This document shows positions 13,890-18,357 of a stretch of DNA of 38,729 nt, in pieces. The notes below the pieces were generated by a model, which was given only the letters and a program-made list of their open reading frames with translations, had not been told where the DNA came from and made no database searches. The position numbers were made by a program, and so were the translations under genes. Numbering within the stretch: the first letter of the stretch is position 1; the number at the start of each line of letters is the position of its first letter. This DNA comes from Actinomycetota bacterium (lineage in GTDB: Bacteria; Actinomycetota; Acidimicrobiia; Acidimicrobiales; Ilumatobacteraceae): assembly GCA_005793215.1 (NCBI GenBank), contig SXPV01000034.1, positions 1-38,729 on the forward strand, in the 5' to 3' direction.

Positions 13890-15401
13890 GTGGTGCCAAA
13901 CTTCTCGGCGACGACACCGATTTACTACGTAACGGCCAAGCCGCACCTCGGGCACGCCTACACCACCATCGTGACCGATGCCGTCTGCCGATGGCATCGC
14001 CTGTGCGGGGATGATGTTCATCTCCTCACCGGCACCGACGAACATGGCCTGAAGGTGCAGCAGTACGCCGACGCAGCGGGAAAAACTCCGAGCCAATTCG
14101 TCGACGAAATCGCCCCGCTGTATGCCGACACTTGGAAGCGTCTGGATGTTCGCTACGACGACTTCATTCGCACCACCGAAGAACGTCACAAGCGTGGCGT
14201 CAACAAACTGTTACAAGCGTGCTTCGATGCAGGCGACATCGAGCTCGACGTGTACCGCGGCCACTACTGCGTGGCGTGCGAGGCCTACTACACGGACGAA
14301 GAGCTGGTCGGCGGTAACTGCCCCATTCACACCACCACCAAGGCAGTGTACGTGGAGGAAGAGAACTACTTCTTCCGTCTGTCGCGTTTCGAGCAACGTT
14401 TGCTCGACTGGTACGACCAACACCCGGATGCAATCGTGCCCGGATTCCGACGCAATGAAGTGATCGGGTTCATCAAGGGCGGACTCAACGACTTTTCCGT
14501 CAGCCGCAAGACCCTGAAGTGGGGCATTCCCCTGCCGTGGGACGCGAACCACGTCGCCTACGTATGGTTCGACGCGTTGGCCAACTACATCACCGCGCAC
14601 GGCTACGGCACCGACGACAAGCAATTCGCCGAGCATTGGCCGGTGGACTGGCACTTCATCGGCAAGGACATCATCCGGTTTCACTGCGTGTATTGGCCCG
14701 CAATGTTGATGTCCGCCGGCATCGATCTGCCGAAGGGTTGGGCGGTTGGCGGATTCCTCTTGGTTGGTGGCGAGAAGATGTCAAAGACCACCGGCAACGT
14801 GGTGAGCCCACTGGATTTGGTGGATGAATTTGGCGTGGATGGATTCCGCTACTACGTCTTGGCCGACACGGTGTACGGCAATGACGGCGACTTCACCTAC
14901 GAAGGACTCGTCGCGCGGTACAACTCCGATCTTGCCAACAACCTCGGCAACCTCGCTGCACGCGTGGCAACCGTGGTGGAAAAGAAGTGTGGCGCTCGTG
15001 GCCCTGCCCCACGCAAAGACTCGCCACTTGCCGCAATCGCAGCCAACGTCGTACGCGACACCGATGCTGCATGGCGCGGTGCACAGCCGAGTCGTGCACT
15101 TGAAGCAACGTGGAACCTCATCCGCGCCACCAACGCGCATCTCGAACAACACGAGCCGTGGAAGATGGAACCCGGTGATGCGGTCGACGATGTGATGGGC
15201 GATGCACTCGAAGCACTGCGCATCGTGGTGATTCTCGCCAATCCGGCATTGCCCACGACGACGCAGGAAATCTGGCGACGAATCGGTTTGCCGGGACGAA
15301 TCGAAGACTGTCGCATCGGCACCGACACTGCTTGGGGCGCATACCCTGGCGGGCTCACCGTAGAAAAAGGCGAACCGCTCTTCCCACGCAAGAAGGGCTG
15401 A
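13890..15401 (+). CDS. metG: Methionine--tRNA ligase
   Basis: TTPIYYVTAKPHLGHAYTTIVTDAVCRWHRLCGDDVHLLTGTDEHGLK (HIGH-like HLGH), KMSKTTGN signature, zinc-type CVACEAYY...CPIH knuckle. Confidence 0.96.
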   Translation: MVPNFSATTPIYYVTAKPHLGHAYTTIVTDAVCRWHRLCGDDVHLLTGTDEHGLKVQQYADAAGKTPSQFVDEIAPLYADTWKRLDVRYDDFIRTTEERHKRGVNKLLQACFDAGDIELDVYRGHYCVACEAYYTDEELVGGNCPIHTTTKAVYVEEENYFFRLSRFEQRLLDWYDQHPDAIVPGFRRNEVIGFIKGGLNDFSVSRKTLKWGIPLPWDANHVAYVWFDALANYITAHGYGTDDKQFAEHWPVDWHFIGKDIIRFHCVYWPAMLMSAGIDLPKGWAVGGFLLVGGEKMSKTTGNVVSPLDLVDEFGVDGFRYYVLADTVYGNDGDFTYEGLVARYNSDLANNLGNLAARVATVVEKKCGARGPAPRKDSPLAAIAANVVRDTDAAWRGAQPSRALEATWNLIRATNAHLEQHEPWKMEPGDAVDDVMGDALEALRIVVILANPALPTTTQEIWRRIGLPGRIEDCRIGTDTAWGAYPGGLTVEKGEPLFPRKKG

Positions 15402-15406
15402 GCACC

Positions 15407-16195
15407 GTGCCGAACTGGATCGACACGCACTGCCACGTGTACGACGAGCGCACGCCCGGTGGCAGCGATGCGTCCATCGCCAATGCACACGCACATGACG
15501 TCGACAAAGTCATCGTGATCGGCACCGACGCCAACACCACCGCGCAGGCACTTGCACTTGCTCAGCGACACGAAAACGTATGGGCAACCGTTGGTTTGCA
15601 TCCACACGAGGCGAAGTTCGGTGTCGACACGATCACACCGTTCGTTGACGGGCTCAGCTCGGCCCAACTCGACGAAAAGAAGATCGTTGCAATCGGAGAA
15701 TGCGGGCTGGACTTCTACTACGACCATTCCGATCGCACCGCGCAGCGCGAGGCATTCGCCCAGCAGATTGCCCTCGCCAAGCAGCATGACCTCACGCTCG
15801 TGATCCACACTCGAAACGCATGGCCCGACACGTTCGATGTGCTCGACACCGAAGGAATGCCCGAGCGCGTGGTGTTCCATTGCTTCACGGGTGACGAAGC
15901 CGAGGCGCGGGAGTCGGTGAAGCGCGGTGCTTGGTTGTCGTTTTCGGGAATCGTCACCTTCAACAAGGCCGACGACATTCGTCGTGCTGCAAAGTTTTGT
16001 CCGAGCGACAAGTTGCTCACCGAAACCGATGCGCCATGGTTGGCTCCGGTCCCACATCGCGGCAAGGAAAACGAACCGGCTCACGTTCGACTGATCGGTG
16101 AGTGCTTGGCGAGCGTGCGCGAAGCATCGATCAGCGACATTGCGCGTATCACCGTGGAAAATGCCCATAAGGCGTTCCCGCGACTCTCTCGCTAG
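15407..16195 (+). CDS. tatD: TatD family metal-dependent hydrolase (DNase)
   Basis: GTG 15407: MPNWIDTHCHVYDERTPGG...; GECGLDFYY, ETDAPWLAPVPHRGKENEPAHV. Confidence 0.92.
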   Translation: MPNWIDTHCHVYDERTPGGSDASIANAHAHDVDKVIVIGTDANTTAQALALAQRHENVWATVGLHPHEAKFGVDTITPFVDGLSSAQLDEKKIVAIGECGLDFYYDHSDRTAQREAFAQQIALAKQHDLTLVIHTRNAWPDTFDVLDTEGMPERVVFHCFTGDEAEARESVKRGAWLSFSGIVTFNKADDIRRAAKFCPSDKLLTETDAPWLAPVPHRGKENEPAHVRLIGECLASVREASISDIARITVENAHKAFPRLSR

Positions 16196-16208: not shown

Positions 16209-16706
16209 ATGTTCCTCAGCGCACGTGATCGACGCCGAGTCACGCTCGTCGGGCTGCTCACGCTGGTGGTGGTGCCGGCGGTGTTGTTCTTCACCCGTGG
16301 CGAGCCGCAGGCGGACGTTGCCACGGTGGCAGCCGCTGGTGTCGACATCGAGGCTTCGTCGGCCACGAGCGATGCCCCAGCACCGGTGTTTCTTTCTGGT
16401 CCAGCAGGGGTTGCACCAACTGGAACCGCACCAATCGCCTACCCCAGCGGAGACAGCGCAAAGCTCACCGGCCAGGCCACCTTCAGCAGTTTCAATGGTG
16501 CACCAAACACGGTGTGCAACGCTCCGTTGGCCCCGTACGGGTCCACGCTCGTGGTGAAAAACCTCAATAACGGCCGCTCCATTGCCTGCTCCAACGTGAT
16601 GATGCCCTCCACCCCGGCCAACATCATGGTGGTGTTGCACACCCGCTTGTTCGTGGAGTTGTCCGATCTGGTGAACGCGCCGATCCCCGTGTCCATCACC
16701 TGGTGA
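16209..16706 (+). CDS. Small membrane-anchored/secreted protein with C-terminal DPBB (RlpA-like/3D-like) domain
   Basis: MFLSARDRRRVTLVGLLTLVVVPAVLFF (signal anchor), then low-complexity linker, then TFSSFNGAPNTVCNAPLAPYGSTLVVKNLNNGRSIACSNVMM...VVLHTRLFVELSDLVNAPIPVSITW, resembling the RlpA/DPBB core (A..PyGt.v.V.nl.NGrs..v....). Located between tatD and rsmA. Confidence 0.75.
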   Translation: MFLSARDRRRVTLVGLLTLVVVPAVLFFTRGEPQADVATVAAAGVDIEASSATSDAPAPVFLSGPAGVAPTGTAPIAYPSGDSAKLTGQATFSSFNGAPNTVCNAPLAPYGSTLVVKNLNNGRSIACSNVMMPSTPANIMVVLHTRLFVELSDLVNAPIPVSITW

Positions 16707-17539
16707 CACTCACTCGCTCGCAAACCTCGGAGTTGCTCGAGCGATACGGCCTCGCCCCTCGTCGGGCATTCGGGCAGAACTTCGTGGTGGAACCCGAGAC
16801 GGTTCGACGCATTGCTGCTCTCGCGCGAGTTGGCGCCAGCGATCACGTGGTGGAAATTGGTGCGGGTCTCGGTGCGCTCACCCTGGCTCTGGCCGAAACT
16901 GGTGCCGATGTTCTCGCAGTGGAAATCGACTCCGGAATCGTGCAGGTGTTGCGCGACAACGTGGCCAAGCTCCCCAACGTGCGCGTGGTGCACGACGATG
17001 CCATGCAACTCGACTGGAACGAACTGCTTGCAGCTGCACCAAAGTGGACGGTGGTCGCAAACTTGCCGTACAACGTCGCGACTCCTCTAGTAGCCGACTT
17101 GCTCGACGACGTGCCACAAGTGCAACGCTTGCTGGTGATGGTGCAAAAGGAAGTTGCCCAACGATTCGTGGCAAAACCCGGCAACGACGCATTCGGTGCG
17201 GTGAGCGTGAAGGTGAACTACTGGGCCACTGCCAACATCGTTGGCGAAGTGTCGTCGGCGGTATTTTTACCTCGGCCACGCGTGGCCTCGTCGTTGGTGG
17301 AGATCGTTCGTCGCGAAGCACCCGCGGTAGCCGCCCCGTTTGCCGACATGTTTGCATTAGTTCGCCAGGGTTTTGCCACGCGACGCAAGATGCTGCGACG
17401 CGCTCTTGATGGAGCCGTGATTGCGGGGGATTTCACAGCCAGCGGTGTCGACCCGCAGGCTCGCGCCGAGCAACTCTCGATGGATGATTGGTCGCGACTC
17501 ACGCTCGCCGTCATGGCACGCAAGCAGGCACGATCGTGA
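16703..17539 (+). CDS. rsmA: 16S rRNA (adenine(1518)-N(6)/adenine(1519)-N(6))-dimethyltransferase RsmA
   Basis: GTGA overlap with upstream gene; FGQNFVVEPETVRRI, VEIGAGLGALTLAL, VANLPYNVATPL. Confidence 0.95.
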   Translation: MTLTRSQTSELLERYGLAPRRAFGQNFVVEPETVRRIAALARVGASDHVVEIGAGLGALTLALAETGADVLAVEIDSGIVQVLRDNVAKLPNVRVVHDDAMQLDWNELLAAAPKWTVVANLPYNVATPLVADLLDDVPQVQRLLVMVQKEVAQRFVAKPGNDAFGAVSVKVNYWATANIVGEVSSAVFLPRPRVASSLVEIVRREAPAVAAPFADMFALVRQGFATRRKMLRRALDGAVIAGDFTASGVDPQARAEQLSMDDWSRLTLAVMARKQARS

Positions 17540-18357
17540 CCGACACGGACTCCAGATCCGATGGCGGCACACGGGACGCGGTGCTGGAAGCCCCGGCAAA
17601 ACTCACGCTGTCACTGCGCGTGGTTGGTGTACGCAACGACGGCTTCCATCTCATCGATGCCGAGATGGTCACGCTCGCCCTGCACGACATCGTGCAACTG
17701 AGCCCAGGACCAACGGCACTCAGTGTGAGTGGCCCATTCGCAGAGGGCGTACCAACCACACCCGACAACTTGGTGGCGCGTGCACTTCAGTTGACCAACC
17801 GCACTGCCGCGGTGCACATCGAAAAACGCATTCCCAACGGTGGGGGCTTGGGCGGCGGCTCGGCCGATGCTGCCGCAGTACTGCGCTGGGCGGGCTTCAC
17901 CGACCTGGTGGCAGCATCGCGACTCGGCGCCGACATTCCGTTTTGCATGGTGGGTGGCCGTGCACGCGTGCGTGGCATCGGCGAAATCATCGAACCACTC
18001 CCCCTGGCCCAACGGAGCGACGAGCCACTCGACATCACGTTGGTGGTGCCGCCACTGCACGTATCCACTCCGGCGGTGTATCGCGCATGGGACGAACTGA
18101 ACGATGGCAGGCAACGTGCCACACCTACAGCGGTGCACGACTCCGACGTGAACGAATCAACCTTCGGAGAAAACGACCTGCAGTCGGCAGCGCTGGTGGT
18201 GGAGCCGCAACTCGCACGTTGGCGTGATCGCATCCGCGAAGCTGCGGGTGTTTTGCCAACCTTGGCCGGTAGTGGCGCCACGTGGTTCTTGCGTGGTCAG
18301 CACCACATCGGCGATGCCCTACGCGACGCAACGGTGATCGTTACTCGCAGCCGCTAG
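17536..18357 (+). CDS. ispE: 4-diphosphocytidyl-2-C-methyl-D-erythritol kinase
   Basis: Likely GTG 17536 overlapping rsmA stop; APAKLTLSLRVVGVRNDGFHLIDAEM, GHMP-kinase motif IPNGGGLGGGSADAAAVLRW. Confidence 0.93.
   Translation: MTDTDSRSDGGTRDAVLEAPAKLTLSLRVVGVRNDGFHLIDAEMVTLALHDIVQLSPGPTALSVSGPFAEGVPTTPDNLVARALQLTNRTAAVHIEKRIPNGGGLGGGSADAAAVLRWAGFTDLVAASRLGADIPFCMVGGRARVRGIGEIIEPLPLAQRSDEPLDITLVVPPLHVSTPAVYRAWDELNDGRQRATPTAVHDSDVNESTFGENDLQSAALVVEPQLARWRDRIREAAGVLPTLAGSGATWFLRGQHHIGDALRDATVIVTRSR

Follow-up and report, generated by a model that had tools for sequence, protein, structure and literature searches.

The window, that is, the whole stretch of 38,729 nucleotides that was analysed, contains the gene order metG-tatD-X-rsmA-ispE, in which the neighbours of the gene here called X have been identified by Pfam. 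The X frame comprises 165 codons, from an ATG at 16209 to the stop codon TGA at 16704-16706. A gap of 13 nt separates the tatD stop from the X start, and the X stop overlaps the GTG start of rsmA (16703) by 4 nt, GTGA. The features of the locus are as follows, with DPBB standing for double-psi beta-barrel and "slot" for the place between tatD and rsmA.

13890-15401: metG (Pfam)
15404..16195, + strand: tatD, the upstream neighbour of X (PF01026, E=7e-77)
16209..16706, + strand: gene X, encoding a membrane-anchored, degenerate DPBB protein of 165 aa in the tatD-rsmA slot (open reading frame; family orthologs)
16209..16292, + strand: X N-terminus, residues 1-28, MFLSARDRRR plus hydrophobic anchor, with no evident lipobox and a predicted topology (sequence, 26-member alignment)
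16293..16445, + strand: X low-complexity linker, residues 29-79, varying in length and sequence between orthologs (alignment)
16446..16703, + strand: X DPBB domain, residues 80-165, ~86 residues (profile, AlphaFold, Foldseek)
16515..16517, + strand: Cys103, conserved in 87/88 X sequences and in 59/59 slot DPBBs; probable disulfide with Cys127
16521..16523, + strand: Ala105, in place of the CAHRT His of active slot DPBBs
16587..16589, + strand: Cys127, invariant (88/88 X sequences)
16599..16601, + strand: Met131, at the position of the DRGP Asp; 0/88 have an acidic residue (Asp or Glu) at this column or up to 2 columns away
16632..16634, + strand: Val142, at the position of the IDL Asp, which is Asp in 59/59 slot DPBBs of other families and in 0/88 X sequences
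16638..16640, + strand: His144, specific to X, conserved in 77/88, two residues past the lost IDL Asp
16703..17539, + strand: rsmA/ksgA, the downstream neighbour, overlapping X by 4 nt (PF00398, E=2.2e-49)
17488-18357: ispE; the Pfam match is to the GHMP kinase domain, and the name IspE comes from position

It had been predicted from the sequence that X is a short anchored protein with a low-complexity linker and a C-terminal domain, and that it occupies the slot used by rpfB or yabE elsewhere. The sequence and the 26-member alignment bear out the layout: the hydrophobic anchor (residues ~11-28) directly follows DRRR, R8 and R10 are nearly invariant, and the linker is rich in Ser, Thr, Ala, and Pro. 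The placement has also been confirmed, since X lies between tatD and rsmA, as identified by Pfam, in 110/110 loci (30 that were read and 80 from a public genome collection, two sets that share some organisms), a constancy that rules out chance placement.

The family that carries X is Ilumatobacteraceae, to which the relatives have been provisionally assigned. Among 61 related genomes, X matches were found in 38. All genomes of the window's family except one gave a match; in other families of the order, 2 of the 24 genomes gave matches, which were weak. Within the family, an X ortholog is present in 182/201 genomes and in 75/79 of the good ones. Several genomes filed as Bifidobacterium breve or Ferrithrix thermotolerans (L112, L120, L122, L128, L132-L135, L156, L159) encode X in the gene order of this family and are probably mislabelled MAGs. 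A viral collection was also searched, and no relative of X was found in it.

As a single sequence, X has no significant Pfam match. DUF6023 and SCO2207, which were considered as identities after single-sequence searches of Pfam and NCBIfam, were rejected; these matches were weak and covered the anchor or linker only. However, the profile of the 26-member family matches PDB 4avr (PA4485, an RlpA-like DPBB) with E=0.002. An AlphaFold model made from an alignment of 47 sequences has a pLDDT of 85.4 and a pTM of 0.73, and when it was compared with the PDB by Foldseek, 4avr ranked first (prob 1.00, TM 0.70, E=2.3e-4), followed by expansins and designed DPBBs; SPI (5ntb) and barwin-like proteins were also among the matches. 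The predicted structure contains the six-stranded double-psi beta-barrel that defines the fold. Thus the domain, which the original prediction had called DPBB-like, is indeed predicted to be a DPBB on the basis of profile and model, its own sequence scoring low against Pfam DPBB_1. The lack of DUF348, G5, and Rpf had likewise been proposed, and it agrees with the Pfam searches of X, in which none of the Rpf domain (Transglycosylas, PF06737), DUF348, G5, or 3D/Sps was detected.

What occupies the slot elsewhere was surveyed within Acidimicrobiia by reading a single representative for most of the other families in the class and checking the domains with Pfam. The slot was found to encode DUF348-G5-DPBB, DUF348-G5-Rpf, linker-DPBB, linker-Rpf, or nothing, and it is empty in many genomes of the class, including those of many other families. 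In the deeper branches, DUF348-G5-DPBB proteins are present in L084, L086, L087, L089, and L098 and DUF348-G5-Rpf proteins in L091, L092, and L096; the DPBB protein of L090 has DUF348 only, and that of L088 has neither DUF348 nor G5 over threshold. Within the order to which the window belongs, slot proteins consist only of anchor, linker, and DPBB in L063, L067, L068, L070, and L073 and of anchor, linker, and Rpf in L064, L065, L066, L071, L081, and L083 (L083 by eye). When the C-terminal domain is removed, the DUF348-G5 parts of the two types are homologous (L086 versus L091, 38% over 250 aa, E=1e-36), which indicates that a single protein has had its end domain swapped. Domain displacement, between L086, L087, L090, and L098 (DPBB) on the one side and L091, L092, and L096 (Rpf) on the other, is thus seen within one class and even between sister lineages.

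Two other features of these slots were noted. The slot proteins of L086, L091, L092, and L098 share a conserved motif, VRPSPARAxPHDPxAWLPxPD, upstream of the membrane segment, in what is presumably the cytoplasmic part, and some slot proteins have 2-3 copies of it. In L076, a short ORF lies in the slot 3' of tatD; it encodes a membrane segment and a linker rich in Thr, without any domain that could be recognised. The related L077 has no slot ORF, and the L076 ORF is possibly the slot gene minus its end domain.

In a tree of tatD plus rsmA, the deep branches of which are partly unresolved, X forms one clade (100/100) that falls within the order, with the G5 types placed outside it and with L086 (DPBB) and L092 (Rpf) as sisters (99/95). 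Given this nesting, the loss of DUF348-G5 most likely occurred before the origin of X. This tree replaced one in which metG had also been concatenated and in which some genomes with a divergent metG (27-29% identity to the window MetG in L065, L071, and L083, and 24% in L086) distorted the result. The metG adjoining tatD in L065, L071, L083, L086, and L097 is 24-29% identical to the window MetG, whereas most others show 50-64%; the pattern looks like a replacement of metG at its original location.

The relationship of X to the DPBBs that share its slot can be followed at the level of the domain. An HMM built from 11 slot DPBBs of other families matches 107/107 X domains (window E=3.9e-11, worst 2.5e-8, Z=1); in the control with the same HMM, the best of 1070 shuffled sequences reached 8.9e-5. 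An alignment of X with the slot DPBBs by hhalign gave a probability of 99 over 84 columns, and whole-genome scans of three family genomes with the slot-DPBB profile returned X at its slot (E ~1e-7). Furthermore, both positions of the Cys pair, filled in 87/88 and 88/88 X sequences, are Cys in all 59 slot DPBBs outside the family, whereas the pair is absent from 18 non-slot DPBB paralogs of the same order, with the second Cys in 0/18. (A tree of the DPBB domain had too few columns and joined long branches, and only group counts have been used.) X is almost certainly a DPBB homolog of the slot enzymes. By the location of its gene between tatD and rsmA, and by homology to the slot DPBBs of other families together with their Cys pair, it belongs to the tatD-rsmA slot family of Acidimicrobiia. 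Its place in the RpfB/YabE slot family is supported by position, the anchor-linker-DPBB layout, the Cys pair, and profile homology, X itself being devoid of DUF348 and G5.

This descent bears on one alternative, that X works outside the cell as a protein inhibitor or a receptor built on a DPBB scaffold, like the Streptomyces papain inhibitor, and has nothing to do with wall remodelling. SPI and the barwin-like proteins among the Foldseek matches are in keeping with such a role, as is the use of the DPBB scaffold by non-catalytic inhibitors (PMC7662947). However, X is membrane-anchored, fixed in a wall-gene slot, and derived from the wall enzyme of that slot, and the alternative is unlikely.

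X has lost the residues with which its relatives would cut. In slot DPBBs of other families, the IDL Asp is found in 59/59, the DRGP Asp in 54/59 (with 3 Glu, 1 Ser, and 1 Thr), and the CAHRT His in 35/59. All three are absent from X in 88/88 distinct sequences, and the SWY aromatics and the Thr of PFGT, which are general groove residues, have also been replaced. PF03330 (DPBB_1) does not exceed its curated cut-off in any of 151 family genomes, and the best member reaches E=0.011. The functional Asp of expansins is Asp82, and GH45 and MltA have a counterpart that is likewise functional (PMC5072189). Because the 11-residue spacing of Asp71-Asp82 matches that from DRGP to IDL, the IDL Asp is probably the counterpart of Asp82. 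A catalytic Asp168 is described for Pseudomonas aeruginosa RlpA, whereas Escherichia coli RlpA is described as inactive owing to a Ser in place of that Asp, yet still able to bind FtsK (PMC9712689). The D145A mutation of Vibrio cholerae RlpA abolishes function while septal localisation is kept (PMC8820737). Judging from its residues, X very probably has no lytic transglycosylase activity. As a separate case, in L224-L230 (family f22, slot DPBB) the His has been lost and DRGP has become TDTEA, TDRQA, TDHEA, or TDSQP, with both Asps kept; this erosion of the site represents an intermediate state independent of X.

These results speak against X being a minimal lytic transglycosylase that still works or, as the original prediction had suggested, an ancestral form of the Rpf/YabE family. 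Although the slot position and the DPBB fold would suit either idea, the test proposed in that prediction, the catalytic Asp/His constellation, failed, and X is a single clade nested in an order that carries catalytic DPBB or Rpf slot domains, with DUF348-G5-DPBB and DUF348-G5-Rpf proteins on the deeper branches; both ideas are now very improbable. The slot survey that had been proposed across classes, carried out within Acidimicrobiia, did reveal DPBB or Rpf proteins, with X as the reduced, derived form rather than the ancestral one. No match to Rpf, DPBB_1, G5, or 3D was found in the assembly that contains the window (82% complete). A bona fide rpfB elsewhere in the genome was likewise rejected, none being found in this 82% complete assembly or in 12 further genomes of the genus; across the family, Rpf is over the cut-off in 16/151 genomes, none of them in the window's genus.

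In place of the lost residues, X has conserved residues of its own: N129 (70/88), P136 (75/88), H144 (77/88), and P158 (88/88), with a DAP motif. N129 and H144 are each two positions away from one of the lost Asps and may therefore be on the same strand faces and point into the same groove. It could be argued that X is still an enzyme, with a rebuilt groove in which H144 and N129 create a new catalytic centre that acts on peptidoglycan or some other glycan; H144, N129, and the DAP motif are all absent from active slot DPBBs, and X is under strong purifying selection. However, several genera of the family have D, P, N, S, or G instead of H144, a result that weakens a reading of new catalysis. 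In addition, no acidic residue is left at either catalytic position, and the groove aromatics and Thr are gone, so that this possibility is rather doubtful.

Loss of catalytic residues and accessory domains, together with the absence of the slot gene from many other families of the class, might instead mark X as a decaying remnant, a pseudogene in progress. For the family as a whole, this has been refuted. The frame is open in 110/110 loci, 182/201 genomes are positive, and the dN/dS of X against eight relatives is 0.07-0.14, compared with 0.03-0.12 for tatD and 0.06-0.13 for rsmA. The purifying selection on X is comparable to that on its two neighbours. Furthermore, constraint on the domain mostly equals or exceeds that on the linker, and it is the stronger of the two in the closest pairs. 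A frame artefact is ruled out by the open frame in the 110 loci and the low dN/dS.

Taken together, the fold that has been kept, the cutting residues that have been lost, and the selection that has been maintained suggest that a former enzyme is now a binding or regulatory part. The most fitting reading of X is that it belongs to the slot family as a reduced and derived form, confined to one aquatic bacterial family. It is probably a conserved pseudo-transglycosylase, an ex-enzyme that now serves wall remodelling as a binding or scaffold module tethered to the membrane; that its function is specifically to scaffold or regulate wall remodelling has about an even chance of being correct. In this model, X would represent in its family the ortholog of the cell-wall protein that Gram-positive bacteria encode in the tatD-rsmA (rpfB/yabE) slot, and it would no longer cleave peptidoglycan. 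The N-terminal anchor would hold X in the membrane, and the linker would carry a DPBB, presumably stabilised by the disulfide, into the wall space. There the reshaped groove, with its conserved N129, P136, H144, and DAP158, may bind a wall component or an envelope-protein partner, and X could then scaffold or regulate the remodelling of the wall or cell division, a role proposed earlier for E. coli RlpA.

Known systems resemble X in part. The RlpA/DPBB_1 lytic transglycosylases (PF03330; PA4485, P. aeruginosa RlpA) share its fold, domain length and order, NxxNG turn, and profile homology, but X lacks their catalytic Asps and His, has an anchor rather than a lipobox, has no SPOR domain, and falls below the Pfam cut-off. 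E. coli RlpA (PMC9712689) is also a DPBB protein retained after losing its catalytic Asp. However, it has SPOR and a lipoprotein anchor where X has a transmembrane anchor, and X has lost the whole catalytic set, a loss common to a whole bacterial family. RpfB and YabE/Sps (PMC1084345) have the same position, tatD-X-ksgA, and are anchored, wall-facing proteins, whereas X contains no DUF348, G5, Rpf, or 3D. The slot DPBBs of other Acidimicrobiia families (L063, L067, L084, L098, etc.) share slot, anchor, linker, DPBB, and Cys pair with X but keep CAHRT and/or DRGP and the IDL Asp, and the deeper ones also have DUF348 and G5. Finally, expansins (EXLX1 D1) have the DPBB fold, for which a non-lytic action on walls is known; unlike X, they need Asp82, the counterpart of which X has lost, and X has no D2 domain.

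An exchange of Rpf and Sps in one slot protein between phyla has been proposed previously as "non-orthologous domain displacement" (Ravagnani et al. 2005; PMC1084345). The present survey shows that DPBB and Rpf end homologous DUF348-G5 slot proteins within one class, that accessory domains were then lost, and that in one family catalysis was lost and the protein kept. As a tentative extension, this whole family may have turned the resuscitation/stationary-phase lytic enzyme of the slot into a non-enzymatic regulator of wall remodelling with a rebuilt groove (N129, H144, DAP158). The group to which the X family belongs occurs abundantly in fresh water and has for the most part not been cultured, and its slot proteins and those of its relatives provide matched natural pairs for testing what role the slot protein has beyond cutting peptidoglycan.
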